Assembly (NCBI RefSeq): GCF_026151205.1
Contig: NC_087083.1
Coordinates: forward strand, 870,001 to 934,000
Reading direction: 5' to 3'
From: Bolinopsis microptera
Taxonomy: Eukaryota; Ctenophora; Tentaculata; Lobata; Bolinopsidae
Length of the DNA: 64,000 bases
The notes beneath the pieces were generated by a model that had not been told where the DNA came from, ran no database searches, and saw only the letters and a program-made list of their open reading frames with translations. Every line of letters starts with the position of its first letter. Positions within the stretch are counted from its first letter, which is position 1. A program made the translations under genes and the position numbers. Shown here in pieces: positions 1,885 to 64,000 of this stretch.

Positions 1885-1921
<37 letters not shown>

Positions 1922-13190: not shown

Positions 13191-13200
13191 TTAATTAAAC

Positions 13201-13852: not shown

Positions 13853-13895
13853 GGGTGTATTATGTTCTAAGACAATGGATACTACTATGTTCTTA

Positions 13896-14192
13896 CCCCC
13901 CAGTCCCATAGCGGATATTATGCCAAATTATTAGACGGAGATCGTCAACTAATATTTCTTCGGATATTTCTCCGGTTTGCAGTTCCATAACCTAATCCGG
14001 AGACGGTAATTTTGTTGATTCTCACAGATGGAGCAAAGTGCAAAGAAACTGCCACAAACTGCTACAATCTCCGAGAAATTCCCGGAGAGCTTCATCTCCG
14101 TCTAATACAGTAGACGGAGCCGGAGAATCATCACCGTAGAAATGGACCTCCGTCTAATAATTTGGCATAATATCCGCTATGGAACTGGGGGG
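13896..14192. mobile_element. 297-bp MITE with CCCCCCAGT termini and TA target (left arm only)
   Basis: Terminal inverted repeats of ~45 bp (CCCCCCAGT, GCGGATATTATGCC, AAATTATTAGACGGA) are flanked by TA on both sides (13894-13895, 14193-14194). The right arm shows the empty site around 40220. TA target and end structure fit Tc1/mariner-type mobilisation. There is no coding capacity. Confidence 0.8.
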
Positions 14193-14454
14193 TAGGACAA
14201 TGAATACTATTGTGTTTTTTATAACACTGAAAAAAAGGAAAACCCAGCAGGGATTAAGATGACTACAAGTAAAAAAGGAAAACCCAGCAGGGTTTACGAT
14301 GACTACAAGTAAGACCCTGGAATGAAAATAAAATTTATTTCTGTGCGTGGTCTGATCAAGACAGACTGGGTGATACCTCCAATTAGGTAAGTGTAATGAC
14401 GTGGTACATACCACACAGATACACATCACATCATGGAGTTAATGATATTGATAT

Positions 14455-14525
14455 TATAATCAGAGTGTAGTTCATATCTGAGTGTAGTTTATATCAGAGT
14501 GTAGTTCATAATCATATTAGAAATA
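14455..14525. repeat. Short array of 17-18 bp repeats (left arm)
   Basis: About three to four units of the ATCAGAGTGTAGTTCAT type. The right arm has about twelve at 39796-40003: length polymorphism between the arms. Confidence 0.8.
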
Positions 14526-14699
14526 GGAACCCGAGTTCTCTACAAACTCATTATGAGTTAGGAGTTATGCTAAGTGGTAGATCTATTCACTCCCCTAGAG
14601 TGCTCAATCTTAGTAAACTAAACGAGTATATATAAATATAATATATAAATTTTCGCATTTTAAGATATTTGGAAATTTAATGATTGGATCGAGTCAAAT

Positions 14700-15027
14700 C
14701 TTACTATATATAAAGCGGGACAATATATATGGATATATGGATGGATCCGTGCCATTTTACTGACACCACGGCATCAACTTTAACGCGACTTTCCGCAAAA
14801 ACCGTAAAAGATATACAACTTAAACTTTTTTGACTGGGTCAAATGCTTTAATGGCCTTCAAATCAGCATGAAAAAATGTAAAATTGGCCAAGGAATAAGA
14901 ATTTTAGTGCCCAAAATGTGGACTCCCAAGTGGTGTCAAATTCAAAAACGCGAATTACATAAGGTAATAATTATTTTAGTCTCTCGAGTCTTGACACCAC
15001 TTCAGCGTTAGACGGGTTCCTGCTAGT
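14700..15027 (-). repeat. Dispersed ~280-bp repeat copy, inverted
   Basis: Reverse-oriented member running from CTTACTATATATAAAGCG to GTTAGACGGGTTCCTGCTAG. The right-arm partner is 39287-39608. Confidence 0.85.
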
Positions 15028-46900: not shown

Positions 46901-49900
46901 CTTGACAGAGCCGGGTGCACGCAAGAAGATCTTGCAGGTCGGAAACAATGTCTGTTAGACATCCCAGCCAATAAGTTCTCAGGGAAAGGAGGAGTGAACA
47001 TGACTAGTGGGGGGGCTTACTTTGAGTTTCCTATGTCTGGGGGGGAGAGAGGTGAGTATGTAGGACTTATCATGGTGGATCCAACTGTGGTTACAGTATC
47101 TCCCCGGGATCTGAAGGAGGCTGACTTCACCCCAACTTCACCTATCTCCATCATAGTGTCCAACACAGCTGCGGAAACATACAACGTGTGGTTGTGGCCG
47201 TTTGTACCACCATTTAACACAGAAGATCAGCTGAAAGCTAAACTGGAACCACTCATCGAAGAGATCTCAAATGTTGAAAATGTGATGGATACAGTTATAG
47301 CCCTGTACCCTGACCAAGACCCCACCATGATATGGACTCACATGACCACTGACATGAGAGCAACATGTCCTTCCAACGATGTGGCAGAGGGTATGTCTGC
47401 TGCAACTAACCGGGATATCTACAGACTTTATGTCAGTCATAGCCCTTCGTTTGCTCTCGCACCTTTCCATGCTTATGATTCATATGCCTTTTTCGGGTAT
47501 GAATCAGATGGCATAGAACCGCCTACTATTACCAACATGGACATAAAGTTCCAATCACATTACATTGAGATGGTAAAGAGGTTTTCTCGGGATAAGAAGT
47601 TTGATGATAAATGGACCACTTACCCCGGTGCAACTATGATGTACGAGAACTCTGATACTATTTCTAACGCTGGAGCTGCTAAGCCTCAGGAGGCTGTTTG
47701 TGAAAAGCTGGCTGAACTGGATTTGGTTAAATATGGATCACAAAATAAATGATGAAACTTTGAAAGAAAGTTCAGATTGATACCAAGACAGCTTTAATAT
47801 CTTGTTTTAAAGACTACGCAATAAGTTGGAGGAATTGATACTACTCGCAACAAGAACTGTGACCCTGGAATCCACTTTTCAATGGTTTTTTTCATCCAGA
47901 AACTCTATTTATGGCCATCCTTGTTTTCATATTATATCATGGTAGCTTGTCGATTTTTGTTTTTACATCATACACCAAAAAATATCTGATTGAACATTTA
48001 TTTGTGATTAACCTGTTATATTGGGTATTAATCAAAAATTTCTAGATATCGCTGTCAACATATTTAGTATAGAAGAGAAATATATATATTTGTAGCATAG
48101 AAAAAAAAATATAGAAGATAAATTAGTATTTAGTTCATGTTGATATACAATTATTATTGATATAAAATTGATAAAATTCTATTACTTGTTAAATTTATTG
48201 CTGGTTAAATTGAAGCGATTCCCCTTTTGCTGGGACATAAAGAAATATTCCCAGCCACATATTTAGTTTCAATTCTGCATGTATGCACTAGTCACATGCA
48301 CATAAAACCAGTAACCAGACACTACAACAAATATATTCGGACGCAATGAAACTACCGGACCACGATGTATTGTATGGGGACTTGCCACCCCATGGCAACA
48401 TTAAAATATATCGACTCTGTTACATCGTTTCCTGTTAATATAAAACTCCGTTACAAAATGAACTGGGATCTGTACTCCTGAGTATTATTAATTCAACTAT
48501 AAACCGAGGATTCACTGTTCTCGTAAAGCCAAAGAATAATTCTATACTATTACTACAGGGTGGTCCAGAAGTAACTGCCCACACGCAACCCTTTAATAAC
48601 TCACGTATTTCTTCTTATAATTGCACAGAAATTTCAGAGATTGTAGATATGGGACAAACATAATATGTAGATTTACTGAAAGTTTCGTCAAATTTAATTA
48701 ATTACAGTTGGTGTGGCACGCCACTCCCTCTTTTTCACTATTGTCACCATAAAGTGGGAACGCTTTCAGCTAGGAACTTCAAAGTTTCTAGACACATATG
48801 GCTTGATAATTGAAGTGCTTTCCCAAAATTTCAAGTTGTTTTTCACAATTTAACCTAGTTATTTTGGGCCACCCTGTACTAGTATTAGAGCTTTTTTTTT
48901 AATATTAAAACGAAGCCTTCATGTTACTGAGCCAGGGTTTCCATCACGTTACATAATACCCAATAAATGTAATAAATTTGTAGTGTTGTAATTAGTGAAA
49001 ACTATAAATTAACTCTCGTATTTCAGAAATGTTAACCTAACTTCTACAGGAGGAGCTTGCTACGCTAAAACGAACAGTCGAGAACATCAAGGATCCACTT
49101 TATCGGTTCTTTGAACGGGAGTGCACTATTGGACGTAACCTCCTCAAAACTGTTCTTACTGATCTCAACGATATCTCTCAGGTTGGTGCTAAGAATTTCG
49201 TGCACGTGCACTGTGCAGTGTTCTGCACGTGCACTGTGCAGTGTTCTGCACGTGCACTGTGCAGTGTTCTGCACGTGCACTGTGCAGTGTTCTGCACGTG
49301 CACTCTGCACTGTGAAGTGTTCTACACGTGCACTGTGCAGTGTTCTGCACGTGCACTGTCAGCGTTCTATACGTGCGCTGTCAGTGTTCTGCGTGTGCGC
49401 TCGAAGTACTGCTCGTTATTGCACGTTCACACTTCACCCTACCTTTTCCGCGCAGTGATATAATAATTTATTGAGCACTCCAAATCCTGCATTAGCTTCC
49501 AGATATGCTTATAAACACGGCACTCCCTTTAAAGATAAGAAGACTAATTACAAAAACGTTAAACCCTTCTTCTACCAGGTATGTGATCTGAAAAAGAAGC
49601 AAACAAACTACATACGTGGACTCCTCTCAGACCTACAGAAGGGAATAGTCCCTAAATCGTGGCTTAGATACAACGTACCAGGGGTAACCATTAACCCCTG
49701 GATCATTGACTTCTCCGAGAGGATCAGACAGCTACAAACGATTGTAGAGGCAGCACAGAAGGGCCAGACTGCCCTGAAGGAGATGTCCGTTTGGCTGGGT
49801 AAATTTTATTTATTTATTTATTTGTTTTTTTTTTTAAATGTATATTTTTTTCGTAGCCAATTAGTTGTAGGGTTCTTTTTTGTTAATTTACCGATGGATT

Positions 49901-50346
49901 ATTATGCATTTTGATGTTATTCAATTTATGTTAAGTATCAGCGCTGAATAGATTTTGAATCGACAGCTAATACGAATATTTATAATAAAAGCGAAAGTGT
50001 GGTAACACTGATTTAAATTTTAAAGTGAAAGTGAAAGTGTGGTAACAAATAGCAACATCAAAACGTTAACTTTCACATTTAACGTGACCATATTATCAGG
50101 CGGCCTATTCTCGCAAGAAGCCTACTTCACTGCTACAAGACAGTCTGTGGCTCAGTGTAAGGGATATTCTCTTGAGGAACTCAAACTACAGGTTTGTACT
50201 GCACGTGCAAATGGGCACGTCCGTACTTGTAAATAAGCGCGTGGGTACACCCGCCATACAGTGCACGCTAACAACATTTGCTTGAGGAGTCTATCTTGTT
50301 CAATCTCGAAGGTCCGAGATCAAACTTAATTCTCACACGTTTCCAC

Positions 50347-50381
<35 letters not shown>

Positions 50382-51019
50382 ATCTTGATATTCTCCCAAT
50401 CTTGATAACTGAAATCTTCAAAGTAACCCACGCGACGTGACCCCAAACTAACTCAGGTCTCCGTTCACAACGCTCCAGTTGAGCTGGACAACAGCAGCTT
50501 TGGAATATCCGGTCTGAAGCTGATGGGGGCGATGCACAGTGACGGGAAGCTAACCATTACTGAGGACATCATGACGGATCTGGTGTACACTAAGATTAGC
50601 TGGGTCAGGGACCAGGATATTCAGATATCCGGCAAACAGGTGATTTTATATTTAATAGATGTGAATTTAACATTTATATGGTTGGGAGGAGAGGCACGGT
50701 TTTTTGACACATGACAGCAATTAACCAATCAGCTTTCACTATTGACCAATGAAATCCCAAAATCAGTATGACTGTCAAGCAATAAGTACCACCTCTCCAC
50801 CAGAATCCACTTCATGGTTAAAGTTGACATAAATAATCGCTTTATATTATATGCAATTTAATATATAATTTAATAGATAACTAACTAAACCCCCAGATCA
50901 CCCTGCCTGTGTATCTCAACAACACTCGCACCACTCTCGTTGAAACCCTCAACTTTAGAACTGACCAAGACAAGTTCTACGAAAGGGGCGTCGCTATTTT
51001 GTGTACCGGGCTTTCTTAA
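26637..51019 (+). CDS. DYNC1H1-like: Cytoplasmic dynein heavy chain, C-terminal part (right-arm copy, 23 exons)
   Basis: Minus-end microtubule motor; this part covers the end of the AAA+ ring (AAA5-AAA6) and the C-terminal domain, about the last 1000 residues of a ~4600-residue family. Exons seen: 26637-26789, 27180-27351, 27824-27951, 28215-28292, 28589-28729, 29107-29230, ~29405-29558, 29798-~29927, 30159-30297, 30571-30683, 31276-31428, 31706-31850, ~32077-32204, 32445-32544, 32825-32948, 33097-33192, 33432-33605, 37051-37158, 49050-49181, 49579-49798, 50100-50191, 50457-50639, 50897-51019. All but a few have AG/GT borders. Family-typical peptides include [66 protein letters not shown] and the terminal [10 protein letters not shown]. 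Exons before 34 kb carry scattered indels (for example in 26637-26789, 28215-28292, 30571-30683), probably sequencing errors. The first ~3600 residues are absent: the gene is cut at the palindrome axis. The exon at 37051 is frameshifted. Esterase genes are nested in the 37159-49049 intron. Confidence 0.93.
27352..27575. repeat. ~20-bp minisatellite (right arm)
   Basis: TTTGTTTGTGTGTTTGTACG units following the donor of exon 27180-27351, decaying towards 27575 by indels. Mirror of 25376-25580. Confidence 0.88.
28786..29080. repeat. (CTAA)n tetranucleotide tract (right arm)
   Basis: Long ACTAACTAACTAAC tract with interruptions, between dynein exons at 28589-28729 and 29107-29230. Mirror of 23862-24150. 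Confidence 0.9.
30810..31235. repeat. ~46-bp minisatellite with hairpin core (right arm)
   Basis: About nine units of the CTTTTGGCTACATTCCACTG + TTTCTTCTAAAATAACAG type. Mirror of 21690-22100 with different copy composition. Confidence 0.85.
31495..31695. repeat. Minisatellite, AAGTCACTAAC units (right arm)
   Basis: Mirror of 21229-21450; irregular copy number and unit indels. Confidence 0.82.
33606..37050. other. Dynein intron (right arm), no other gene
   Basis: Counterpart of the left-arm stretch 16370-19322. Holds CACGTGAC motifs (33640-33845), G and C runs (34320-34340, 34410-34425, 34788-34840), and inverted copies of GCAGAAGAAGC near 36400-36440. From 36545 it is unique to this arm. 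Confidence 0.55.
36836..37000. repeat. 43-bp minisatellite, four copies (right arm only)
   Basis: Units begin TTCTAAACACAAGGAAACAT and continue CCTGTTCTGTCCTCCTAAATG. They lie ~50 bp upstream of the dynein exon 37051-37158, within the 1.5 kb block missing from the left arm. An antisense open frame across it is a repeat artefact. Confidence 0.9.
39287..39608 (+). repeat. Dispersed ~280-bp repeat copy (right arm)
   Basis: Runs from ACTAGCAGGAACCAGTCTAA to CTTTATATATAGTAAG; mirror of 14700-15027. Confidence 0.85.
39796..40003. repeat. Expanded 17-18 bp array (right arm)
   Basis: About twelve units of ATAAACTACACTCTGAT with ATATGAAC variants, against three or four in the left arm (14455-14525). 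Confidence 0.92.
40846..40905. repeat. Array of TAAACTAGTTTA palindromes (right arm)
   Basis: Same four palindromes as at 12062-12121, ~430 bp upstream of esterase A. Confidence 0.8.
41334..42989 (+). CDS. Membrane-anchored cholinesterase/carboxylesterase-like protein A (right arm)
   Basis: 551 residues, one exon, ATG to TAA with no frameshift. Signal-anchor hydrophobic segment at ~9-30 after MGCSRKACG, then an extracellular alpha/beta-hydrolase domain. Residues seen: WIHGGG (136-141), GESGG with nucleophile Ser227, acid Glu362/363, and IHAYDS with His460. The elbow has Gly where true cholinesterases usually have Ala (GESAG). Cysteines at 105 and 117 fit the small disulfide loop of the family. 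It differs from the left copy at about ten positions (for example Val31 for Phe, VV for EI near residue 88). Residues ~179-262 are almost identical to paralogue B. A promoter is not recognisable. Non-catalytic, adhesion-type relatives exist in this family, but the full triad argues for an enzyme. Confidence 0.95.
   Translation: MGCSRKACGIFSAILLFLAFVVLALLLVFVVKDNIKNPIQARTKNAGIILGKTVTLKDDVTEMHEFHNIRYAVAPIGELRFRPPVRPVVDPEQGVEASDETPVVCVQADTGVGVEDCLVLSVRSRDLTGSKPVLVWIHGGGLATGYGMMQGYSFDAEVTHKVDAVTVNINFRLGFIGFSSVEELWDEEAGVYANNGIRDMIAALDWIQDNIAAFGGDPGSVTLIGESGGATAILALVSSPLANNKFHAAIAQSPAPEMRFTHINGDAYQRTIVDQANCTQEAAEDRKQCLLDLPAHKFSREYIEIVNGDAYFTFPKSQTEDAEVVGLVMIDPVVVTVTPRNLKSAGFTPSSPLPIIVSSLAEENYVMSWLFSPPFASEADLKTAMQPLFENLTDEDNAMETAIALYPDTEPTTIWSLMTCDMRATCPSNDVAEAMSGAANRDIYRLYITHRSSVGIPAIHAYDSIAFFGYNSALLPFTAQESDIKFENHYIDMVKKLAQDKKFDDGWTPFPGKSMIYENTDEISNIGSTEPQGSICEKLTEMDLVKYGWQN
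42990..43705. other. Spacer between esterase A and tiny gene (right arm)
   Basis: No gene. Mirrors 9281-9989 with very few differences. Confidence 0.5.
43706..44260 (-). CDS. Small two-exon single-pass membrane protein, Cys- and Gly/Asp-rich (right arm)
   Basis: Minus-strand exons 44181-44260 and 43706-43961 (80 + 256 nt, same sizes and borders as in the left arm) encode 111 residues. They comprise a signal peptide, a short Arg/Ser-rich extracellular part, one transmembrane segment, the [10 protein letters not shown] cluster and a Gly/Asp tail. The N-terminus differs slightly (Leu for Phe at residue 4, Thr for Ala at residue 8), a conservative pattern that supports real coding. Transcribed against both esterases and dynein. 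Confidence 0.72.
44434..44559 (+). mobile_element. Fragment of LINE 3' end (right arm)
   Basis: Matches the terminal part of the left-arm LINE 3' UTR (8130-8256) in sense orientation and is the mirror of 8414-8545. A 5'-truncated relic shared by both arms. Confidence 0.7.
44567..44843 (-). repeat. Dispersed ~280-bp repeat copy, uninterrupted (right arm)
   Basis: Mirror of 5261-5397 plus 8267-8413; represents the empty site of the left-arm LINE. Confidence 0.88.
44844..46093. other. Region upstream of esterase B (right arm)
   Basis: No gene recognised. Contains CACGTGGTTAGCACGTGG repeats (45130-45180) and T-rich sequence (45890-45960). The promoter of esterase B is expected near the 3' end of this stretch, but no element stands out. 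Confidence 0.5.
46094..47752 (+). CDS. Membrane-anchored cholinesterase/carboxylesterase-like protein B (right arm)
   Basis: 552 residues, single exon, intact. Signal anchor at ~8-30 ([20 protein letters not shown]), catalytic domain with WIHGGG (133-138), GESGG with Ser224, Glu361 and FHAYDS with His459. Paralogue of A, 3.1 kb downstream in the same orientation, so the two are a tandem duplication with the tiny gene between them on the other strand. Residues ~175-260 are nearly identical to A even at silent sites, while flanking parts are much more divergent, pointing to gene conversion or strong constraint. The stop is TGA at 47750-47752; an AATAAA overlaps the last codons, perhaps by chance. 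Confidence 0.95.
   Translation: MKKNCKILSVVLVFLVAVSIAIILLILLLYKNNDIVVRTTSAGKVIGKTVTLNDGNTKIHEFHNIRYAEPPTGESRFRPPVRHMISDPGQEVKAKDDIAITCIQADSGEGTEDCLVLTVRSSDVTESKPVLVWIHGGGLMSGYGEAVGYSFDSEITHKVDAVTVNINYRLGFLGFSSVEELWDEEAGVYANNGIRDMIAALDWIQDNIAAFGGDPGSVTLIGESGGATAVLALVSSPLANNKFHAAIAQSPAPEMRFTHEQGNDFQRELLDRAGCTQEDLAGRKQCLLDIPANKFSGKGGVNMTSGGAYFEFPMSGGERGEYVGLIMVDPTVVTVSPRDLKEADFTPTSPISIIVSNTAAETYNVWLWPFVPPFNTEDQLKAKLEPLIEEISNVENVMDTVIALYPDQDPTMIWTHMTTDMRATCPSNDVAEGMSAATNRDIYRLYVSHSPSFALAPFHAYDSYAFFGYESDGIEPPTITNMDIKFQSHYIEMVKRFSRDKKFDDKWTTYPGATMMYENSDTISNAGAAKPQEAVCEKLAELDLVKYGSQNK
47753..48555. other. Intron spacer downstream of esterase B (right arm)
   Basis: No gene. Holds AT-rich tracts and a right-only insertion of ~130 bp near 48345-48478. 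Confidence 0.5.
48556..48876. mobile_element. 321-bp MITE with CAGGGTGG termini and TA target (right arm only)
   Basis: Starts CAGGGTGGTCCAGAAGT and ends TTTTGGGCCACCCTG, i.e. imperfect terminal inverted repeats, flanked by TA at 48554-48555 and 48877-48878. The left arm (near 1555) shows a single TA and no element. Ends of this type are known from mariner-like transposons. No transposase inside. Confidence 0.87.
49050..51019 (+). CDS. DYNC1H1-like: Dynein heavy chain C-terminal exon block, clean sequence with stop codon
   Basis: Five exons with intact reading frame and consensus splice sites: 49050-49181 (44 codons, includes [13 protein letters not shown]), 49579-49798 (starts [14 protein letters not shown], includes GIVPKSW), 50100-50191 ([14 protein letters not shown]), 50457-50639 ([11 protein letters not shown]) and 50897-51019 ([12 protein letters not shown] to [10 protein letters not shown], then TGLS and TAA at 51017-51019). 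This is the C-terminal domain typical of cytoplasmic dynein 1. The protein ends a few residues after the ILC, as the family does. The last two exons lie at or outside the end of the inverted repeat, so this is the only place the gene ends normally. The intron after the first exon carries a CACGTG-rich minisatellite. Confidence 0.95.
49195..49400. repeat. CACGTG-rich minisatellite in dynein intron (right arm)
   Basis: Tandem ~22-bp units alternating TGCACGTGCACTGTGCAG and TGTTC, beginning 14 bases after the donor of the 49050-49181 exon. Units contain nested palindromes (CACGTG, GTGCAC) and so could fold. The left-arm version (1030-1212) has other unit variants, as expected of two alleles or diverged copies. 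The cysteine-rich open frames here are by-products of the repeat. Confidence 0.88.
50346..50382. repeat. Poly-C run in dynein intron
   Basis: About 35 C in the intron before the exon 50457-50639. The end of the inverted repeat lies within 60-100 bp of it, and its complement bounds the left arm (79-116), so it is a likely site of polymerase or assembly slippage. Confidence 0.85.
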
Positions 51020-52350: not shown

Positions 52351-53780
52351 CACCCTACGCGCGTGGGGTGGACTTTTATTCAGCGCGTATTTTGTAGCCT
52401 GTTCAACTTGAAGTTTTGAATCGTTACTATCTCAATGTCACAGATACACAGAATGTGAGGTGATCATCTTAAAGAGAAACGTCTCAGCTTTCACCTGGTG
52501 TAAAGTTTATCTTTGTTCTCAAAATATAGCTCGCTCAGTGTGCAACAGAAGTTGACATTACAATAACCACGTCCGCGACCGGTCGTCAGATACCGGAGTC
52601 TTGCACAAAATTGGGTCCCTAAATTAAAATTTTATGACACAGTTACGATGAACTAGTGTCTAGGGAAACATTTGGTGAAAATTTGAAAGGTCTACTGTTA
52701 ATATTGCAAAAGTTATTGAAAACAAACTAGCTTAATCAGAAGTTTTTGGGAAAATTTCAAATTTTGTACGTAGTGGGGTCTACTGGGGTGGACTCTCGTG
52801 ACGCGCATCTGATGGCGTGGCTTTTTCAACAGCAGTCAGTACGGCCAATATCAGAGCACAAATTATTGTGAGTAAGACCTTAATGGTCAGCTATGAACCC
52901 CTCACTAGAATAGTAACCGTATCTATAAACAAGGAAATGTTATTCCGTCAAAGCTCAAATTTTTTACTCTTCTCAGTGCAGTTACTATGAATGTACTAGC
53001 TAAGTATCGTTGATCGTAGCTGCATTACACAGTAGATTGGACCGTAAAAGACTTTGACTGCACAAATATTATTTTCCAAACATTATAACTGGCTGGTCAC
53101 ACACATCTAAATTAAATTACCCTAGGCTACTGTTTTCCAAGTCTTGTCCTGTGAGTAAAGTATGTGTGAGAAAGTTTTAATAAAATGAATGTATATTTTT
53201 GAATTTTTAAATTTTAATTTGAGAATGAAGTATAAAGAAATTTTTAATTAGCATTGTATAGTTTAAAATATTTATAGCTTATTATAACCATTGATAAATT
53301 TAAGCCATAATCTTTCGCCTGCTCTCCAATATCAACCTTGAAGGTGCATTTTTAATCCTTGAACTACACAATATAAAATCAAGCATGTTTTAGTGTAGAC
53401 TTTTTGTCACAACAAGACTGCAACCTATATAGTAAAAACTTTAAACAGAACCCCTAATGTCTGCTAACAATTTTTCGTATAGTCCTAATGTGAGCCTTGT
53501 CTCTAAAAACTTAACTGAACTAGCGTTTTGGTGTGTGCAAAAGCTCCCAGGCACGCGCATTCCTTGCCCCGTTAGTTACCTGTCCTTCCAAAACCAAACA
53601 AGCAGTCAAGGACAAAAAGTCATACACCAAATGGGCATTATATTTTATGAATTGTTTTACATCTTTTATTCTGTAAAATGTGCTAAAATTAAATTTCTTG
53701 TTTCATTGAATTTCTTGTTTCATTGAGAAGGTAACCAAGGAAGACTGCTGATTAACGAAGCAATTTCAACGTGAAACTGG
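52351..53780. other. Intergenic stretch without recognisable gene
   Basis: AT-rich. Related pieces TGGGGTGGACTTTTATTC (52365) and TGGGGTGGACTCTCGTG (52785) with CGCGC nearby suggest an old repeat. An 89-codon open frame at 53457-53726 has no recognisable domain. Confidence 0.45.
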
Positions 53781-56592
53781 CAGCCAATAATTTAATTTAG
53801 TTCCCCTTGATGGTTCCAATTAGAATTAGACCTATTCAGGGAAACACAGTATTCAAGTATATTTATTTCTAGTTCCTAGCAGCCAATAATTTAATTTAGT
53901 TCCCCTTGATGGTTCCAATTAGAATTAGACCTATTCAGGGAAACACAGTATTCCAGTATATTTATTTCTAGTTCCTGGCAGCCAATAATTTAATTTAGTT
54001 CCCCTTGATGGTTCCAATTAGAATTAGACCTATTCAGGGAAACACAATATTCCAGTATATTTATTTCTAGTTCCTAGCAGCCAATAATTTAATTTAGTTC
54101 CCCTTGATGGTTCCAATTAGAATTAGACCTATTCAGGGAAACACAGTATTCCAGTATATTTATTTCTAGTTTCTGGCAGCCAATAATTTAATTTAGTTCC
54201 CCTTGATGGTTCCAATTAGAATTAGACCTCTTCAGGGAAACACAGTATTCCAGTATCTGTATATTTATTTCTAGTTCCTAGCAGCCAATAATTTAATTTA
54301 GTTCCCCTTGATGGTTCCAATTAGAATTAGACCTCTTCAGGGAAACACAGTATTCCAGTATATTTATTTCTAGTTCCTGGCATCTAATTATTTAATTTAG
54401 TTCCCCTAGATGGTTCGAATTAGAATTAGACCTCTTCAGGGAAACACAGTATTCCAGTATATTTATTTCTAGTTCCTAGCAGCCAATAATTTAATTTAGT
54501 TCCCCTTGATGGTTCCAATTAGAATTAGACCTCTTCAGGGAAACACAGTATTCCAGTATATTTATTTCTAGTTCCTAGCAGCCAATAATTTAATTTAGTT
54601 CCCCTTGATGGTTCCAATTAGAATTAGACCTCTTCAGGGAAACACAGTATTCCAGTATATTTATTTCTAGTTCCTAGCAGCCAATAATTTAATTTAGTTC
54701 CCCTTGATGGTTCCAATTAGAATTAGACCTCTTCAGGGAAACACAGTATTCCAGTATATTTATTTCTAGTTCCTAGCAGCCAATAATTTAATTTAGTTCC
54801 CCTTGATGGTTCCAATTAGAATTAGACCTCTTCAGGGAAACACAGTATTCCAGTATATTTATTTCTAGTTCCTGGCATCTAATTATTTAATTTAGTTCCC
54901 CTAGATGGTTCTAATTAGAATTAGACCTCTTCAGGGAAACACAGTATTCCAGTATATTTATTTCTAGTTCCTAGCAGCCAATAATTTAATTTAGTTCCCC
55001 TTGATGGTTCCAATTAGAATTAGACCTATTCAGGGAAACACAGTATTCCAGTATATTTATTTCTAGTTCCTGGCAGCCAATAATTTAATTTAGTTCCCCT
55101 TGATGGTTCCAATTAGAATTAGACCTATTCAGGGAAACACAATATTCCAGTATATTTATTTCTAGTTCCTAGCAGCCAATAATTTAATTTAGTTCCCCTT
55201 GATGGTTCCAATTAGAATTAGACCTATTCAGGGAAACACAGTATTCCAGTATATTTATTTCTAGTTTCTGGCAGCCAATAATTTAATTTAGTTCCCCTTG
55301 ATGGTTCCAATTAGAATTAGACCTCTTCAGGGAAACACAGTATTCCAGTATCTGTATATTTATTTCTAGTTCCTAGCAGCCAATAATTTAATTTAGTTCC
55401 CCTTGATGGTTCCAATTAGAATTAGACCTCTTCAGGGAAACACAGTATTCCAGTATATTTATTTCTAGTTCCTGGCATCTAATTATTTAATTTAGTTCCC
55501 CTAGATGGTTCTAATTAGAATTAGACCTCTTCAGGGAAACACAGTATTCCAGTATATTTATTTCTAGTTCCTGGCATCTAATTATTTAATTTAGTTCCCC
55601 TAGATGGTTCTAATTAGAATTAGACCTCTTCAGGGAAACACAGTATTCCAGTATATTTATTTCTAGTTCCTAGCAGCCAATAATTTAATTTAGTTCCCCT
55701 TGATGGTTCCAATTAGAATTAGACCTATTCAGGGAAACACAGTATTCCAGTATATTTATTTCTAGTTCCTGGCAGCCAATAATTTAATTTAGTTCCCCTT
55801 GATGGTTCCAATTAGAATTAGACCTATTCAGGGAAACACAGTATTCCAGTATATTTATTTCTAGTTCCTAGCAGCCAATAATTTAATTTAGTTCCCCTTG
55901 ATGGTTCCAATTAGAATTAGACCTATTCAGGGAAACACAGTATTCCAGTATATTTATTTCTAGTTCCTGGCAGCCAATAATTTAATTTAGTTCCCCTTGA
56001 TGGTTCCAATTAGAATTAGACCTCTTCAGGGAAACACAGTATTCCAGTATCTGTATATTTATTTCTAGTTCCTAGCAGCCAATAATTTAATTTAGTTCCC
56101 CTTGATGGTTCCAATTAGAATTAGACCTCTTCAGGGAAACACAGTATTCCAGTATATTTATTTCTAGTTCCTGGCATCTAATTATTTAATTTAGTTCCCC
56201 TAGATGGTTCTAATTAGAATTAGACCTCTTCAGGGAAACACAGTATTCCAGTATATTTATTTCTAGTTCCTAGCAGCCAATAATTTAATTTAGTTCCCCT
56301 TGATGGTTCCAATTAGAATTAGACCTCTTCAGGGAAACACAGTATTCCAGTATATTTATTTCTAGTTCCTAGCAGCCAATAATTTAATTTAGTTCCCCTT
56401 GATGGTTCCAATTAGAATTAGACCTCTTCAGGGAAACACAGTATTCCAGTATATTTATTTCTAGTTCCTAGCAGCCAATAATTTAATTTAGTTCCCCTTG
56501 ATGGTTCCAATTAGAATTAGACCTCTTCAGGGAAACACAGTATTCCAGTATATTTATTTCTAGTTCCTAGCAGCCAATAATTTAATTTAGTT
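53781..56592. repeat. 99-bp minisatellite, about 28 copies
   Basis: Head-to-tail units of 99 bp starting CAGCCAATAATTTAATTTAG and ending TTTATTTCTAGTTCCT(A/G)G. Variants: CCTATT or CCTCTT at position ~51; a CATCTAATTATT start with CCCCTAGATGG; a 6-bp CTGTAT insertion (105-bp units near 54240, 55340, 56045). The variants recur in the same order, so the array has higher-order repeats. The last unit breaks after 25-30 bp and runs straight into the LINE. Confidence 0.97.
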
Positions 56593-56785
56593 GAGATTTG
56601 AAAAGTTACTTTGAGATTTGAAAAGTTACTTTAATACTTTCAGCGCTGCTATATAACAAATAATTTGAGTTCAGGGATAGAATGATTTAACGCCCCCAAA
56701 GGGGAGTTCGTAAGTTTTCTTGTTGATTTATTGCTGCGATTCTTGTGTCTTTGCTGTCCGACTCACTTGAAGATCTTATCTCATC
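56593..56785 (+). promoter_or_regulatory. LINE 5' untranslated region
   Basis: 193 bases from the minisatellite border to the ORF1 start, opening with the duplicated 20-mer and containing a GCCCCCAAAGGGG near-palindrome at ~56692. An internal promoter is expected for such elements; whether it lies here or in the 99-bp array is not known. Confidence 0.4.
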
Positions 56786-58993
56786 ATGTCAGGTCAAAAG
56801 ACTGCTGGCATCAAACCCCCTGGTAACAGGCGGAATTCAGGCGCAAACACCCCTACAGACACAAAAGACAGGAAAACAGCCAAGAAGTCATCTCTGAAAA
56901 AGGACGTAGATGTGCTGCAGACTGCCTTAAATGTGATTCCAGCTGGAGATACTCCTGCCCTGCTCACCAACCACAGAGACCTAGAACAATGCCCTTGTGG
57001 CAATTCTTCGGATGCATGGAAGATTGACTGTTCAAAATGTCACCAGTTCTGGCATGTGGATTGTCTAAGCATGAAGGGCATGGGACAGTCCCAAATCAAC
57101 AAACTGGTAGAATATCTATGCCCATTCTGCTATGTAGCACCAATCCCAACCATAAATCATGACCTCGACCTCTGCCATGTCTGTAGAAACACACTCACGA
57201 TCCAGCAAGCCAACAGTGTTCATGAAATAGGAATAGCAAGTGAGAAGCTGGAACAAATGGCATCATTTGGTGACCTGCTCAACAAAGTGAACTTTGACAA
57301 CCTCAAAGATGGACTATTGGCCATACAGAACCTCGAGCTACATGTTCAACATATATTAATCAGTGAGGAAGGTCTGAAGCATCACCAAAACAAAGTGAGT
57401 AAGATAGAGGAACATATGAGTGAAATTGCTAAGCAAAAAGCATCAGAGGATGGTTCAATCACTGACATGGTAAAACAGACACATCAGTTGGTTGAACAAC
57501 TCCAGAAGATCAGTGATAAGCCGGAGGTAACATCTCACAAGAACGAGGAGCTAATGAAAAGGATCGAAGACAAGCTCCACGCACTAACCGAAAGTGAGAC
57601 AACTTTTCAGACCCAACTTAACAGTTTAGGTAGTCAAATACAGGATCTTAAAGCATCTCCTCAATCCAGAGCACCACCTGTGGCTGAGAAACACTCTCCT
57701 CCACCACATACTCTCTTACAACCTGACCAGCCTACCCCTCATATAGCACATGACCAGGTGCCTGTAACGGAAATCAAGCCAGATTTCATTCTGTCAACTG
57801 AATCTGATAAAATTACTGCCTTTCTTCAGTCATGTTCCTTCGAATCAGAGAACGGTCACTCTGTCATTTCATTTGGCAATCCCTACCACTACACTGGTTC
57901 AAAATCTTCAAAAAATGTTCCACCGATTCCTGAGGAACTTAAACCATTATTTGATGAAATGAACAAAGTACAAACTGAGCTGTACAATAAGTGCTACCCG
58001 GAGCAGCCCCACCTGACGGCCCCAGTTATTAACTCATGTCTCATCAACAGATATGATGGCCCTGATAGTCACCTGCCTAATCATTCAGACCGTGAAGTGA
58101 CCATCCATCCGGAATCCTCAATTTTTACTTTGTCTCTCGGCCAGAGTTGTAACATCAAGTTCACTGAATGTGACTCTGGAACTGAATCTTCTTATGAATG
58201 TTTAGACCGCTCCTTGTACATAATGAGCCGTAGATCACAAGAAGTTTACAGCCATATGATTGAGCGTGGCTCAATATCAGATGGCATTAGATACTCGCTG
58301 ACCTTTCGTGCTGTTAGCTGGACTAATAAAAATTGCACAAGTTTACATGGTGATTCAAACACAGGCCTCTTGCGTTTTGGGTCTGACAAGAGGGGTACCT
58401 TTGGTGAGCTCATGCCAGGTCAAAAATTCTGGGCTCCCAGAATTGATGATATCAACCCTGTGTCCTGCATGGGTTACGCCAATGTAGTGCTCCACTGTGG
58501 GATCAATGACGTGAGACAGCCTGATGTTAAATCTGAGAATGATATTGCTGATTGCTACAATAAACTGAAGCTGAAAATAAAACAAATTAAGAAGCTTAGC
58601 CCTAGCACTAGAGCTGTATTTGTTTGTCAGCTGCTTCCCACTAGGGACTTACAGCTGAATTTTAAAGTTGATTCATTTAATAGACTTATTCATTTTGACC
58701 TGCTCCCTACATGTAAGGATGTTGTGCGTGTTCAGGGTTTTATGAAGTTCGCCTGCAACCGTGTTCTTGCGGACGAACTTTCAAAACAATTTGACAGAAA
58801 TGGTCGACCTGATACACTTCATCTTAACAAGTCAGGGGCAAGAGTCCTTGCTGGACTCATTAAACAATCTGTATTTACTAGGTTAAATGGTGGGGCAGAC
58901 AGAAGACATCACATCGGCAAAGTTAATGGACGGCTATACAGCAACGTGGCTAGTGACCCGCCTGCACCGCAGCGGATGGGGAGGAACGGTTAA
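56786..58993 (+). CDS. LINE ORF1: PHD finger - AlkB-like dioxygenase - SGNH esterase
   Basis: 735 residues. A PHD-type zinc finger lies at ~69-115 (C69, C71, C82, C85, H90, C93, C112, C115), followed by CHVC at 130-133 and a charged, coiled-coil-prone region at ~150-290. Residues ~415-512 carry the whole AlkB signature: N421-R-Y423, iron ligands H433-x-D435 and H490, and R502/R508 in R-x5-R for 2-oxoglutarate. Residues ~515-700 carry all SGNH blocks: GDS with Ser524, Gly545, G-x-N-D at 572-575, and D676-x2-H679. ORF1 proteins bind element RNA and accompany it to the target. PHD and esterase domains are known in ORF1 of some CR1-type LINEs; an AlkB domain between them is unusual to my knowledge. 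The inferred roles are histone-tail reading, repair or demethylation of the RNA or cDNA, and membrane or ester chemistry, all unproven. It ends 5 bases before ORF2 in another frame. Confidence 0.88.
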   Translation: MSGQKTAGIKPPGNRRNSGANTPTDTKDRKTAKKSSLKKDVDVLQTALNVIPAGDTPALLTNHRDLEQCPCGNSSDAWKIDCSKCHQFWHVDCLSMKGMGQSQINKLVEYLCPFCYVAPIPTINHDLDLCHVCRNTLTIQQANSVHEIGIASEKLEQMASFGDLLNKVNFDNLKDGLLAIQNLELHVQHILISEEGLKHHQNKVSKIEEHMSEIAKQKASEDGSITDMVKQTHQLVEQLQKISDKPEVTSHKNEELMKRIEDKLHALTESETTFQTQLNSLGSQIQDLKASPQSRAPPVAEKHSPPPHTLLQPDQPTPHIAHDQVPVTEIKPDFILSTESDKITAFLQSCSFESENGHSVISFGNPYHYTGSKSSKNVPPIPEELKPLFDEMNKVQTELYNKCYPEQPHLTAPVINSCLINRYDGPDSHLPNHSDREVTIHPESSIFTLSLGQSCNIKFTECDSGTESSYECLDRSLYIMSRRSQEVYSHMIERGSISDGIRYSLTFRAVSWTNKNCTSLHGDSNTGLLRFGSDKRGTFGELMPGQKFWAPRIDDINPVSCMGYANVVLHCGINDVRQPDVKSENDIADCYNKLKLKIKQIKKLSPSTRAVFVCQLLPTRDLQLNFKVDSFNRLIHFDLLPTCKDVVRVQGFMKFACNRVLADELSKQFDRNGRPDTLHLNKSGARVLAGLIKQSVFTRLNGGADRRHHIGKVNGRLYSNVASDPPAPQRMGRNG

Positions 58994-58998
58994 CAGGT

Positions 58999-61900
58999 AT
59001 GGTTAATCGTGTTCAAAAGGAAATTTGTTATCACTGTCTGAAGAATATTGGTCTAGGGCTTCCCCACTTTGAATGCTTTAACTGCAACAGTATTTTCCAT
59101 GCCAAATGTTTTAATCCCTCCAAAGCACAAGTTATTAATGACAACTTTTACTGCATCAAATGTAAACATTCTATATCTAAAAAATATAATCCTTTTAAAG
59201 TAATGACCGATCCTGAAGTTAATGACTGTGACCCATGTCTCCAAAAGATGTCTGATGTTTTGGAAAACTGTAGATCCTATACAATTAAGGACTTTAACAC
59301 ACATATCAAACCGTGTTTTGCAAGCAACTGCTCCATGATTTTCCAGAACATAGATGGCAATAAAACAAATTTTGATGCCTTTAGCATGGAACTAGACCTA
59401 ATAGCCGAAAAATTTAAAATTATTGGACTTGCTGAAACCAATATTGGAATAGAGGAAAGCACTGTTTACCATCTAGAGGGATACAATTGTTTCTACCAAG
59501 ATAAACATATCAATAAAGCGAAGGGAAGTGGAGTAGCATTGTACTTAAAGGACGAACTTAATGGAGTTGTAAACGAAGAATTATCATGGGTAACCAAAAA
59601 TCTTGAAACCCTATTTATTACCATTCAACATGATGAACCTCTACATGTAGGAGTTCTGTACCGTCCTCCTAGTGGGAACGCCTCAGAGGCACTAAATGAA
59701 CTTAGAAAAATGATTGAATCATGCTCAAAAAAGAATGTTTACATACTAGGAGACTTCAACATTAATCTCCATGATGAAAACAGTAAACTCGTTCAAGACT
59801 TTGAAAACCTTATTCTAGGCCTAGGTTTATCACCACTTATTTCTACGTCTACGCATCATAAACCAGGATGTAACCAATCATGCATTGACAACATACTCAC
59901 CACCAACATCGAAAACTCTATCTGCTCTGGAACGATTAGTACCTGCATCAGTCACCATCATGCTGTATTTAACATATTCAACTCACCCCTAGTCAGTGCT
60001 GAGGATCATGAACAAAAGCACTTCCAGTACTATGACTACTGTGCAACTAATGTGAACAAATTTGTCGAAGTACTAGACAATGAATTAACAAGTGATCCAC
60101 CAGAAGATTTCAGTACTTTTTTCACTCTATTCAATCATCAACTAGACAACGCATGTAAACTAGACCAGCCTAAGTGTTCTAAACGTACTGCTAAAAACAA
60201 CCCATGGATTACATCTGGCCTAATTGCCTCTATAAATAGAAAACATGAGCTTTATGACCTATGGAAAAAGGCAGTTAAGAAGAAATGCCTCAGCAACTCT
60301 TCACCTAGCCATGCAGACTGTCTTACTCTTTGTTATAATTGTACAAATAAGGTAACACGTCATGAAGAATTTAAGGCACACCGGAAGTTATTAAACCACC
60401 TTATCAATTCTGCAAAACGTAAGTATCATGGTGTTAAGATTACAGAATGCGCTGGAGATAGTAAGAAAACCTGGCAGATAATCAACGAACTACGTGGTAA
60501 GAAAAGACGTGAGATCAAGCCGAACTTCGTGATAAATAATGAACGTGTGATTAATCGTCGTATAATTGCAAATGAGTTCAATAAATACTTTGCCTCTATT
60601 GCAGCTAACCTGAACGAAGCATACTCTGGTGACTATTTGAGAATAAATTCGCTGCCTTCATTTACTGACTACCTGCCAACATCAATTACGTCCAGTATTT
60701 ATCTTTGGGATTCTGACTGTACTGAGATTAAAGAGACCATAAGCGAACTAAAAAACGGGAAATCCAGTGACATACCTATTCATGTGATCAAGAAGTCATG
60801 CCAAATTACTGCACCGTACTTAGCTAGATACTTTAACAAATGCATGCAAGAAGGCCACTTCCCCGATGAATTGAAGACTGGGAGAATCAGCCCCATTTAC
60901 AAAAAAGAAGATGAACAGCTATTAGAAAACTATAGACCAGTATCAACTCTACCTGTATTCGGGAAAATTCTAGAAAAGTTAATTTATAAGAGGCTCTATA
61001 GTTTCCTTACTTCCAAGGGGATAATACATGAAAACCAGTTCGGCTTTAGGAAAGGACACTCCACCAGCCATGCACTGAACTACTCTGTAGAACATATAGA
61101 ATCGTTAATTAGTAAAAAGCAACATGTCCTAGGGGTCTTCATCGATCTCTCAAAAGCCTTTGACACTCTAGATCACTGTAAACTAACTACTAAATTAAAA
61201 AACTACGGTATAAGAGGGAATGCTCTGAATCTTATCTCTAGTTACTTGTCTAATAGGAAACAATTTGTAAATGTTCTAGATACCAAATCTGATGAATTAC
61301 CGGTCGAATTTGGAGTCCCTCAGGGTAGTGTATTAGGACCTCTACTTTTCCTACTGTATATCAATGATATTTGCAATATAACTAATAAGGGTAAATTTGT
61401 CTTATTTGCAGACGATACTAATATATTTGTCGCTGCCGATTCGAAAAATAAAGCATACGAATTGGCTAATGAAGTACTACAGGCCGTAAATAAGTATATG
61501 GGAGTTAACCTACTGCACATTAATGTAAAGAAGTGTTGTTATATGTACTTTTCTCCCTCTAAACGTGATAATAGCGAATTAAATGCAGATATAGATAGCC
61601 AAAACTTGTCCATAAATAACAAAATAATTAAACGTGTAAGTCAGACAAAATTTCTTGGAGTAATCATTGATGATAAACTGAGCTGGAAACCACACATATT
61701 ATCTCTCAATAAGAAACTAAGTAGTGCTTGTGGACGTATCTACCGTATTAAGAAATGCTTGCCAGAATCACTATATAAGCAAATATATCATTCTCTCTTT
61801 GAATCACACCTAGGTTATGCTATTTCTGTCTGGGGAGGTATTCCCAATAATCAGTTGAAACCGCTATTTATTACTCAAAAGAAGTGTATCAGGATTCTCT

Positions 61901-62076
61901 TTGGAGACTTTGAAGCCTATGTAGACAAGTTCAAGACATGTGCTAGAGCAAGACCAATTAATTCTCAACGTCTAGGATCTGAATTCTATGTTAAAGAGTC
62001 CACCAAACCTCTATTCACAAAACACGAACTACTTGCTATAGAGAACCTATACAGATGTATAGGTACCGTTGTTTAA
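58999..62076 (+). CDS. LINE ORF2: PHD finger - APE endonuclease - reverse transcriptase
   Basis: 1025 residues as read. An N-terminal PHD-like C4HC3 finger (C10, C13, C26, C29, H34, C37, C52, C55) precedes an APE-type endonuclease at ~112-327: N117, E146 in GLAETN, GDFN (D252, N254), CIDNIL (D297), and SHH at 318-320 where most families have SDH. The reverse transcriptase at ~600-870 has ISPIYKKED, ENYRPVSTLP, NQFGFRKGHST, VFIDLSKAFDTLDH, GVPQGSVLGPLLF and catalytic FADD (803-806), then a C-terminal region. The start ATG is 5 bases after the ORF1 stop, which suggests reinitiation after termination. The frame is lost at ~62050 (after AIENLYR) and the family-like C-terminus continues in another frame to 62351, so the copy is probably dead or nearly so unless the shift is a sequencing error. 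Confidence 0.93.
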   Translation: MVNRVQKEICYHCLKNIGLGLPHFECFNCNSIFHAKCFNPSKAQVINDNFYCIKCKHSISKKYNPFKVMTDPEVNDCDPCLQKMSDVLENCRSYTIKDFNTHIKPCFASNCSMIFQNIDGNKTNFDAFSMELDLIAEKFKIIGLAETNIGIEESTVYHLEGYNCFYQDKHINKAKGSGVALYLKDELNGVVNEELSWVTKNLETLFITIQHDEPLHVGVLYRPPSGNASEALNELRKMIESCSKKNVYILGDFNINLHDENSKLVQDFENLILGLGLSPLISTSTHHKPGCNQSCIDNILTTNIENSICSGTISTCISHHHAVFNIFNSPLVSAEDHEQKHFQYYDYCATNVNKFVEVLDNELTSDPPEDFSTFFTLFNHQLDNACKLDQPKCSKRTAKNNPWITSGLIASINRKHELYDLWKKAVKKKCLSNSSPSHADCLTLCYNCTNKVTRHEEFKAHRKLLNHLINSAKRKYHGVKITECAGDSKKTWQIINELRGKKRREIKPNFVINNERVINRRIIANEFNKYFASIAANLNEAYSGDYLRINSLPSFTDYLPTSITSSIYLWDSDCTEIKETISELKNGKSSDIPIHVIKKSCQITAPYLARYFNKCMQEGHFPDELKTGRISPIYKKEDEQLLENYRPVSTLPVFGKILEKLIYKRLYSFLTSKGIIHENQFGFRKGHSTSHALNYSVEHIESLISKKQHVLGVFIDLSKAFDTLDHCKLTTKLKNYGIRGNALNLISSYLSNRKQFVNVLDTKSDELPVEFGVPQGSVLGPLLFLLYINDICNITNKGKFVLFADDTNIFVAADSKNKAYELANEVLQAVNKYMGVNLLHINVKKCCYMYFSPSKRDNSELNADIDSQNLSINNKIIKRVSQTKFLGVIIDDKLSWKPHILSLNKKLSSACGRIYRIKKCLPESLYKQIYHSLFESHLGYAISVWGGIPNNQLKPLFITQKKCIRILFGDFEAYVDKFKTCARARPINSQRLGSEFYVKESTKPLFTKHELLAIENLYRCIGTVV

Positions 62077-62351
62077 TGGAATTGTTTAAGATCATTAAGT
62101 CACGAGTACCAATTTCGTTATACTACCTATTCGGCTTATCAAATAGGAAAGATAATTTGTTAATCACGCCCTCTCCAACTAATCAATTTATGTACAAATC
62201 TGCATGGCTGTGGAACGAATTTCGTAAAGTTGGGCCGATGAATTTCACCTCCCCTTGCAGCTCTGTCAAGAATTTGCTTAAACAGTCACTTCTAAGAGCT
62301 CAAAACAGGTATGGAACTGATTGGTGTGACAAAAATTTCACTGAATTCTGA
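62055..62351 (+). pseudogene. Frame-shifted C-terminus of LINE ORF2
   Basis: About 98 codons continuing ORF2 one frame off: YRCLMELFKIIKSRVP, then LYYLFGLSNR and YKSAWLWNEF, the pattern seen at the end of CR1/L2-type ORF2 proteins (an FK-I block, R-x-N block and LWN). It overlaps the ORF2 frame by 22 bases around CTATACAGATGTATAGG, where a small duplication could have caused the shift. Confidence 0.8.
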
Positions 62352-62460
62352 GTGAGAAGTGATAATTGCCTGTTATTCCCACTTACTGACTGATAATCTT
62401 ATCTATGGATACCATGCTTGAATTTAGGTAAACAACATAGCACTTCCTCACCAGTCACGT

Positions 62461-62949
62461 TGAACGCGATCGCCGAATGATAAAACAATATGGAAACGCG
62501 CGCGCACAGCATTGCGCGCTGATACTCTAAATACTGTGCGCGTTTCGTCCGGAACCTGGGGGAGTTCCCGCTCTAATATATCTGACGACAGTGATCACTC
62601 ATTATGAGAACTAATCCCGACCACTTTCCCGGTCGAACCGTACCCAAATCAAACTAATTTATGAACCACGTGTATAGCCAACGTCCTTGCGGTGCTGAGC
62701 CGATGTAAAACTCTTCTGTCTCTTGTTAATATTTTAGTTGTACTGTGCATAAAAGTGTGTAGTGACAAGTGTGTAGTGGTAATGTATATTATTTATTATG
62801 ACGACGCGATATTTATAATGCAGAATAAAAAAGCTGCTTTCGATATGACTGGTGGTGGGCTCTCTCCGGCGGGACATAGATCTATATAGGGGGTACCCGG
62901 GGTACGAGTTAACGAACAGTGTTCGTGTCCTTCCACAACCCCCTGTTAC
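62461..62949. other. CpG-containing spacer after the LINE
   Basis: Rich in CGCG for this window (62467-62545, e.g. GCGCGCGCAC). No gene seen. Confidence 0.4.
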
Positions 62950-63100
62950 CTGTGTTTCTGTCGGGGTAGCCTAATTCATCCGTTAGAATCGCAGAGTTAG
63001 CGGAGCTCATGATATCTCGCGACATATGCTGCATGAACGGTGCAAGACTTGCGCCGTTTGTTTCAGCATCCAGTTGCGAGTGCTTGCCCATCGAAAACAT
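62950..63100 (-). CDS. Possible first coding exon of an unknown gene
   Basis: Minus-strand open frame beginning MFSMGKHSQLDAETNGAS and ending at a good donor (CAG|GTAACA, exon end at 62950) after PDRNTG. Codon use looks balanced and the peptide is not low-complexity. No domain recognised, no second exon found to the left (the LINE lies there), and there is no right-arm comparison. A weak candidate only. Confidence 0.25.
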
Positions 63101-64000
63101 GATTAGTGATTGTGGATTTTATTGATATTACTGATTATCCATCATATTCAGTATTAATGTTATCCATTATTTATTTATTGACATCCTTCAGTCTCCAAAA
63201 CGAGGTGTGAAGGTAAATTAACTTTGAGCCTTGTTTTGGCGACTGCTTAATCGATGGGCAAGTAGGTATTTGTTTTTTAGCAGTGTTGAACATTGAAACA
63301 ATTATAAAATGTTTATTTTTATCTTATATAACGTACAATATGAATGACATATGCTATAGTGACGTAACATATATAGTGCAAAGAATTAGTAACTTGCGAG
63401 ATCTGATTTGGTGATATTCGACGTTAACATTTTGCAGTTTACAGTTGCACAATGTTGACGTCGATTGTTACTAACATTTATCTGAATTTAATACAAGTAC
63501 ATGTCACATATAAATTGGGTACGGTTGAAATGAAACTCGTGCCTCAAAATTTTCCGTTATTTGCATTGCAGTGTCCACGCCCTGTACTGCGTTAACGACC
63601 GAAATTTTCCCAATATGCAATTATTATTTTGCTTATAAAATTCTCTGATAAATAATAATATATCGTGACATTTAATTGTAAGATAACAAACCTCGCGCGC
63701 GCGGCGCTTTCATCTGCACCTGAGAATCTCTCAGCAATGTGTGGCTGTCTGCGCGGCGGGCTGTGTATTGTGTATATAGCTGAATTTAAATTTAGATTTA
63801 TTTGTAAATGTATAATAATATTAAATATGTATTGATTGTTTTGTGGTAAATAAAAATTTTGTTTTACTAAAAAAAAATTTTGTTTTACTACTTACCATTG
63901 TACAGTCAAAAATTATATTTTTAATTTCAGCATAGTGATGAGAGTGGGCTATCAAAGTATCAATGTGTGGGATTTCTGCTGCTTTGTTACAGTCATCTGA
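63101..64000. other. Terminal stretch without recognisable gene
   Basis: AT-rich with a CGCGCGCGGCGC patch at 63693. CTTGCCCATCGA (63085) and TCGATGGGCAAG (63251) form a 12-bp inverted pair ~165 bp apart; AAATTTTGTTTTACT is repeated in tandem at 63855-63890. Confidence 0.4.

Follow-up and report, generated by a model that had tools for sequence, protein, structure and literature searches.

A ctenophore LINE whose ORF1 joins a PHD finger, an AlkB-type dioxygenase and an SGNH hydrolase

Kapitonov and Jurka reportedly described esterase and PHD ORF1s in CR1 and L2 lineages in 2003. In the available text of a later survey, PHD and esterase (type IV) ORF1s are described for elements of both lineages (Metcalfe and Casane 2014, PMC4120745), and the available text on the zebrafish element ZfL2-1 states that its esterase binds lipids (PMC3905857). 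AlkB domains have been described in other settings. A Ty3/Gypsy element of the orchid Phalaenopsis encodes an AlkB-type m6A demethylase that is active on RNA in vitro, according to the accessible part of its description (PMC9289625), and the AlkB domains of plant Flexiviridae replicases are thought, in the accessible part of PMC544882, to repair or protect the RNA genome.

The window, by which we mean the whole stretch of DNA analysed (64 kb), contains a non-LTR retrotransposon whose ORF1 is a 735-residue open frame at 56786-58993 (+), with the order PHD, coiled coil, AlkB, SGNH, basic tail. The features of this copy are as follows.

56630..63889 (+): non-LTR retrotransposon copy, whole, delimited by comparison with other copies; its 5' end may be incomplete
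56990..57130 (+): PHD finger, C4HC3, residues 69-115; ligand motif, and profile match to DIDO1, BPTF and other PHD fingers
57185..57661 (+): long helices or coiled coil, residues 134-292; AlphaFold helices 134-167, 170-192, 194-243 and 252-289
~57611, approximate (+): breakpoint in the DNA alignment of two subfamilies
57746..58321 (+): AlkB domain, residues 321-512; PF13532, 8.6e-16, and fold match to ALKBH2/ALKBH3
58082..58090 (+): H433-x-D435 iron ligands, by homologue conservation
58253..58255 (+): H490 iron ligand, by homologue conservation
58289..58309 (+): R502-x5-R508, the 2-oxoglutarate and AlkB-specific arginines, by homologue conservation
58322..58885 (+): SGNH hydrolase domain, residues 513-700
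58355..58357 (+): S524, catalytic serine (GDSN), by homologue conservation
58418, 58505 and 58811-58822 (+): the other SGNH residues, G545, N574 and D676-x2-H679 respectively, by homologue conservation
58886..58990 (+): basic C-terminal tail, pI 11.4; candidate RNA-binding segment
58999..62076 (+): ORF2 open frame, 1025 aa, with N-terminal zinc finger, endonuclease and reverse transcriptase; starts six bases past ORF1
60901..61668 (+): reverse transcriptase domain, ORF2 residues 635-890; PF00078
62040..62352 (+): ORF2 end region; the frame closes at 62076 and the remaining coding sequence is in another frame

The original prediction was of a LINE ORF1 that fuses a PHD finger, an AlkB domain and an SGNH domain. 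All three were confirmed, and every residue it had named for them was found in its place. PF13532 (2OG-FeII_Oxy_2) matched residues 365-508 at 59.2 bits, above the curated cut-off of 31.2 (E 8.6e-16), both the HxD...H iron triad and the R...x5...R arginines of the AlkB family are present, and this part of the predicted structure is a double-stranded beta-helix. The SGNH fold was likewise recovered, and the GDS, G, GxND and DxxH blocks are complete. With ORF1 as a single sequence, Pfam gave a weak SGNH esterase match (0.046) and listed no PHD family at E 1. A profile built from 108 ORF1 homologues matched the DIDO1 PHD finger (1.7e-4) and PatB (6.5e-4), which supports the PHD and SGNH calls; the C4HC3 ligands also have PHD spacing.

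Pfam matched ORF2 to PF00078 (1e-38), PF14529 (3.6e-8) and PF03372 (1.2e-5), with the endonuclease ahead of the reverse transcriptase, the APE-type order. At ORF2 residues 6-55 (59014-59163) there is a weak match to a C1/PHD-type zinc finger that was found also in L052, and similar Cys-rich ORF2 starts are readable in L053 and L055. Using blastn against other copies, we aligned L031 to positions 56630 to 63889 and L032 to 56821 to 63888; L032 is a 5'-truncated copy that shares its 3' end with L031, and this comparison covered one truncated copy. Short A/T-rich repeats make up the 3' tail, and a search for target-site duplications in two copies gave only chance-like matches of 7-8 bases. At L040, positions 5354-6242 are 94-96% identical to window positions 63157-63824 beside a distant family member (ORF1 43%), perhaps through a shared tail or a separate insertion.

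In the assembly searched (264.65 Mb in 232 contigs), 61 of 1124 candidate ORF1 matches were scored, and 52 of the 61 are without an internal stop. Frames of at least 1100 aa hold 60 of the 146 scored reverse transcriptase matches, and at least 45 of these 60 have an ORF1-type SGNH 1.5-4.5 kb upstream. The element is a young multicopy APE-type non-LTR retrotransposon of the ctenophore; its placement in CR1, L2 or Jockey would rest on motifs and ORF1 types. ORF2 frames of 1121-1150 aa are open in seven of the 11 copies fetched (L031, L032, L033, L035, L038, L039 and L041). Because its own ORF2 frame closes early by comparison, the window copy may be dead despite its intact ORF1. Another subfamily, represented by L033, L034, L037 and L038, is 90-92% identical in DNA to the window copy downstream of ~57611 and has no DNA alignment upstream, as if the N-terminal module of ORF1 had been exchanged between the two subfamilies or had evolved fast. 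Reticulation, the exchange of ORF1 modules, is reported in LINEs in the available text of Metcalfe and Casane (PMC4120745).

Several other features lie nearby. Positions 36-15799 and 38459-50444 of the window form a large inverted duplication of seven collinear pieces with 87-97% identity (ten listed, 83-97%), which carries two carboxylesterase gene pairs, at 2228-3952 (-) and 9990-11645 (-) versus 41334-42989 (+) and 46094-47752 (+), a call checked in Pfam for two of the four genes. The left arm is interrupted at 5398-8265, and the right arm is continuous at 44707. This gap contains most of a reverse transcriptase frame at 5337-7343, an element fragment placed as if it had arrived after the duplication. 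A tandem array of a 99-base unit (53780-56592, ~28 copies, 95% matches) ends 37 bases before the retrotransposon body. A search of the window for Rfam families found none.

The prediction had also depended on the active sites being conserved in other copies, and the residues proved almost invariant both in homologues and at loci of the same genome. Across 154 aligned homologues, the AlkB residues H433, D435 and H490 were each kept in 152 of 153, R502 in 151 of 152 and R508 in 151 of 151; for the SGNH residues the counts were 151/151 (S524), 151/151 (G545), 150/150 (N574), 142/143 (D676) and 144/144 (H679). Each of the eight PHD ligands was kept in 110-116 of the 113-119 homologues with letters there, and at the D575 position the 150 homologues include 32 with N and 3 with S. 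When these residue sets (8 PHD, 5 AlkB and 5 SGNH, 18 in all) were scored together in the 154 proteins, 101 had every one; 49 lacked letters in at least one set and had no change in the sets covered. The remaining 4 had a changed residue: a PHD ligand in two (SGNH incomplete), an AlkB residue in one and an SGNH residue in one (PHD incomplete). At the 29 loci of the same genome (L002-L030), all 27 with letters at every AlkB site keep them. Median dN/dS between the window subfamily and its sister subfamily was 0.164 for AlkB (70 pairs) and 0.256 for SGNH (55 pairs), each set amounting in effect to one subfamily-versus-subfamily comparison. Judged from these alignments, the AlkB-SGNH part of ORF1 is under purifying selection.

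A protein search seeded with AlkB plus SGNH, a seed that favours AlkB holders and makes the breadth a lower bound, returned at least 140 homologues. Among the 120 listed, all organism-named ones are from Mnemiopsis leidyi, and 4 bear the source name 'alkylated DNA repair dioxygenase AlkB'; a second protein search, also with at least 140 homologues, again gave Mnemiopsis for every named one of the 120 listed. The same ORF1 type was found in gene models of Mnemiopsis, a ctenophore, and the window probably comes from a close relative, most likely Bolinopsis. With a fungal AlkB as query, the genome gave 692 candidates, of which 150 were scored. The two top matches were host genes, first ALKBH2 (L042, 3.6e-60 to the human protein) and then ALKBH3 (L043, 9.8e-40 to its human counterpart). 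The list continued with many further AlkB matches, lying in open frames of about 320-780 aa, and ten of these were fetched (L044-L053). L044, L045, L048 and L049 have an AlkB followed by an SGNH-like part, without a PHD (Pfam AlkB 4.2e-18 in L045, 5.6e-23 in L049). L046, L047 and L051 are another ORF1 type (AlkB 2.1e-17 in L047, 1.2e-19 in L051), and the ORF2 behind that of L047 is L055 (RT 5.4e-38). In L050 (1382-3301), an N-terminal AlkB (3.3e-21) is followed, as read from motifs, by a coiled-coil-like stretch and an SGNH-like end; behind a copy of this type lies the ORF2 L054 (938-4273; RT 2e-28). The ORF1s of L052 and L053 are closer to the window type. The SGNH part is less clear in these other ORF1s than in that of the window: their Pfam GDSL matches were all below curated cut-offs (L049 8.3e-6, L052 0.0038, L047 0.0093, L045 0.016, L051 0.039), and the C-terminal end of the L050-type ORF1 (L054:2-733) gave none.

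ORF2s of the window type are 50-95% identical to one another, but identity drops to 25-30% when this type, L055 and L054 are compared (over only 331-430 residues where L054 is involved), so an AlkB-bearing ORF1 precedes at least three very different reverse transcriptases in one genome. The idea of a single LINE with its own AlkB therefore stands as to the AlkB-bearing LINE ORF1 and not as to one odd LINE, given at least three ORF2 lineages and the Mnemiopsis gene models. The only candidate group fetched as an AlkB-less relative of the window ORF1, L058 (54% SGNH identity), has AlkB too; it is absent from the 61 scored ORF1 genomic matches. The reverse transcriptase fragment at 5337-7343 (PF00078 9.7e-35) is 40.6% identical to the L054 ORF2, and thus a relative of the AlkB-first lineage also lies inside the window. 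Collectively, these comparisons indicate that the ORF1 architecture is real, selected and recurrent.

To what class does the AlkB belong? ALKBH2 was the best match of the ORF1 AlkB in profile searches, and both these and comparison of the predicted fold ranked ALKBH2/ALKBH3 above ALKBH5/FTO. In single-sequence profile searches, L047 and L050 matched ALKBH3 best (1.2e-15 and 1.6e-12), with ALKBH2 next. Across 108 homologue rows no change occurs at the lid residues Y367 and Y369 or at G364 and G371, and in the alignment the Y-x-Y lid of the LINE AlkB stands opposite YTY and YSY in the two host genes; this invariance and the match to the host lids speak for a substrate pocket that has been kept, beyond a mere fold. 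By sequence, fold and lid residues, an enzyme of the ALKBH2/ALKBH3 (m1A/m3C) class is more likely than an m6A eraser, with substrate class judged from solved enzymes in a family whose specificity is hard to infer from sequence. Of the self-encoded m1A/m6A demethylase in the original prediction, the m1A/m3C class is thus favoured by profile, fold and lid, and the m6A half is weaker, though possible.

We built two trees of AlkB domains. The first (47 rows, with the L044, L045 and P0064 domains mis-cut and P0161 missing) grouped the LINE AlkBs other than L050 with two short AlkB proteins, P0170 and P0176 (36 rows, support 82/89), a group to which neither host gene belongs. It paired the host ALKBH2 gene with the AlkB of the fungus Scutellospora (94/77) and set the host ALKBH3 gene next to a bacterial-looking protein serving as root. 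The second, re-cut tree (45 rows; L045, P0161 and L039 absent) left the deep branches without resolution, and neither tree puts the LINE AlkBs inside ALKBH2 or ALKBH3. By AU test on the second tree, one clade of the 33 LINE rows including L050 was weakly rejected (p 0.028) and one clade without L050 was not rejected (p 0.202), for a clade that excludes P0170 and P0176 and was chosen after the first tree, and with L050 a long branch. Most LINE AlkBs carry M-(S/T)-(R/K)-x-(S/D)-Q before the second iron histidine, a few rows differing at one position; the motif is absent from L050 and from both host genes (L042, L043). The simplest reading, as yet unproven, is one old AlkB capture plus perhaps a second, of the L050 type, whose AlkB the first tree separates from those of the other LINEs.

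In a viral structure library, most of the best 50 matches were RNA virus polyproteins or AlkB-type proteins from giant viruses; a few came from phages, and two of these phage proteins are named SGNH esterases, a mixture that does not settle the origin. A search with ORF1 alone found no prokaryote or phage relatives. Pattern searches confirmed 0 of 91 matches in viral contigs and 1 of 117 in genome contigs. The latter, L059, lies in a Bacillota MAG and matches in the SGNH part only (27%); it could be a bacterial SGNH or contamination.

N1-methyladenine and N3-methylcytosine both stop reverse transcriptases, and are removed by ALKBH2 and ALKBH3. LINE ORF1 proteins have a cis preference for their own RNA. 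We consider it fairly probable that this LINE ORF1, with its ALKBH2/ALKBH3-type AlkB and complete active site, clears m1A/m3C so that target-primed reverse transcription (TPRT) runs further. ORF1p would oligomerise via its coiled coil upon element RNA, from which the AlkB, with Fe(II) and 2-oxoglutarate, would oxidise off N1-methyladenine and N3-methylcytosine, possibly clearing nascent cDNA as well; with the template cleared before or during TPRT, the reverse transcriptase could extend further. An AlkB tethered to a template-coating protein could reach the sites at which reverse transcriptase stops. The PHD finger may hold the particle at chromatin, and the SGNH domain may act on lipids or acyl groups, as suggested for other ORF1 proteins. 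We infer the demethylase activity, its substrate and its step of action from sequence and predicted structure. Computed pI is 5.2 for AlkB, 9.5 for SGNH and 11.4 for the tail, the latter two basic; since the AlkB domain is acidic, a direct grip on RNA by it is disfavoured, and RNA contact would need the basic SGNH part or the tail. A wider account, in which the AlkB ORF1 module was captured at least once, perhaps twice, was inherited by or spread through ctenophore LINEs with very different reverse transcriptases and erases RT-blocking m1A/m3C from element RNA or cDNA, making these the first known template-mark-editing LINEs, is one we hold tentatively, at a little short of even.

The same domain could instead be an m6A/m6Am eraser that strips host-laid m6A from element RNA, which would then escape decay or silencing. 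A parallel has been proposed for the orchid Gypsy element, but ALKBH5/FTO come below ALKBH2/3 in both the profile and the fold comparison and the lid, Y-x-Y, is of the ALKBH2/3 type, which leaves this reading rather unlikely. The target might also be DNA: DNA methyltransferases leave 3mC damage, and the AlkB could remove 3mC or m1A from cDNA or the nicked target during TPRT in a cytosine-methylated genome. RNA and single strands are probably what LINE ORF1 proteins mainly encounter, which weighs against such repair, although the best profile match, ALKBH2, is a duplex DNA repair enzyme. DNA methylation is reported for Mnemiopsis in the accessible part of PMC12221973. Sequence cannot separate repair on the DNA side from clearing of the RNA template, and we judge the former unlikely.

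An AlkB fold retained purely as a nucleic-acid binder in place of an RRM/CCHC, with catalysis irrelevant, would fit the esterase ORF1s without structural RNA-binding domains in the available text of PMC3905857, and Pfam lists no such domain in this ORF1 either. The iron ligands and both arginines are nevertheless almost invariant while AlkB-region identity of homologues to the window copy averages 57% and falls to 25%, and the domain is acidic; a binding scaffold is very improbable. Rarity of the fusion, and nothing more, could suggest an assembly chimera or a host ALKBH gene beside a LINE, to which we give next to no credence. The multiple copies refute it: an intronless single frame is seen in many of the 61 scored genomic matches, in independent protein sources and in the Mnemiopsis gene models, and the host ALKBH2 (L042) and ALKBH3 (L043) genes are separate loci.

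Clearing of m1A/m3C by ORF1 itself, the reading we prefer, touches on two open questions: which factors limit the reverse transcription of LINE RNA in the cell, and whether methylated RNA keeps retrotransposons in check. Because the element has its own AlkB, the role of template methyl groups becomes testable within one protein. RNA is habitually treated with AlkB in the laboratory ahead of reverse transcription, and an AlkB-bearing LINE would be the natural counterpart of this pretreatment. If the AlkB acts on element RNA or its DNA copy, these LINEs come equipped for repair or erasing. Annotators should note that such elements could inflate the number of AlkB genes counted in ctenophores.

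That LINE ORF1s acquire domains, and that retroelements and viruses acquire AlkB, is known already; the PHD-AlkB-SGNH combination and its spread over several LINE lineages of one genome appear to be undescribed. The original prediction knew of no described LINE of this make-up, and in agreement with it the searchable literature yielded none, nor any LINE with AlkB, subscription papers lying outside its scope and a prior description being possible. The accessible text of a gastropod LINE survey (PMC11203168) mentions no AlkB or oxygenase. The ORF1s of CR1 and L2 lineages resemble the present one in a PHD near the N terminus or an SGNH esterase, a coiled coil in some, an APE-RT ORF2 and modular exchange. 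They differ in that esterase ORF1s occur in only two vertebrate groups in the survey of PMC4120745, as far as its text is accessible, where the PHD, AlkB and esterase combination is absent from Table 1 as shown, and 'dioxygenase', 'oxygenase' and 'AlkB' have 0 occurrences in the accessible main text. Zebrafish ZfL2-1 ORF1p similarly has a coiled coil and then an SGNH esterase with a basic surface, but a dioxygenase is not mentioned in the accessible text (PMC3905857, 0 occurrences). The human ALKBH2 and ALKBH3 proteins are stand-alone host repair enzymes, with 20-23% identity to the ORF1 AlkB in structural alignments. Flexiviridae share the principle of an RNA-based selfish element with an AlkB domain, but are positive-strand RNA viruses in which, from the accessible part of PMC544882, AlkB lies within a polyprotein. 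The Phalaenopsis Ty3/Gypsy element is likewise a retrotransposon encoding an AlkB-type dioxygenase, yet in the accessible part of its description it is a plant LTR element with a separate ORF2, an ALKBH5-like enzyme and one recent lineage (PMC9289625), whereas in the ctenophore LINEs the AlkB is fused into ORF1, is nearest to ALKBH2/3 and is found in several lineages.
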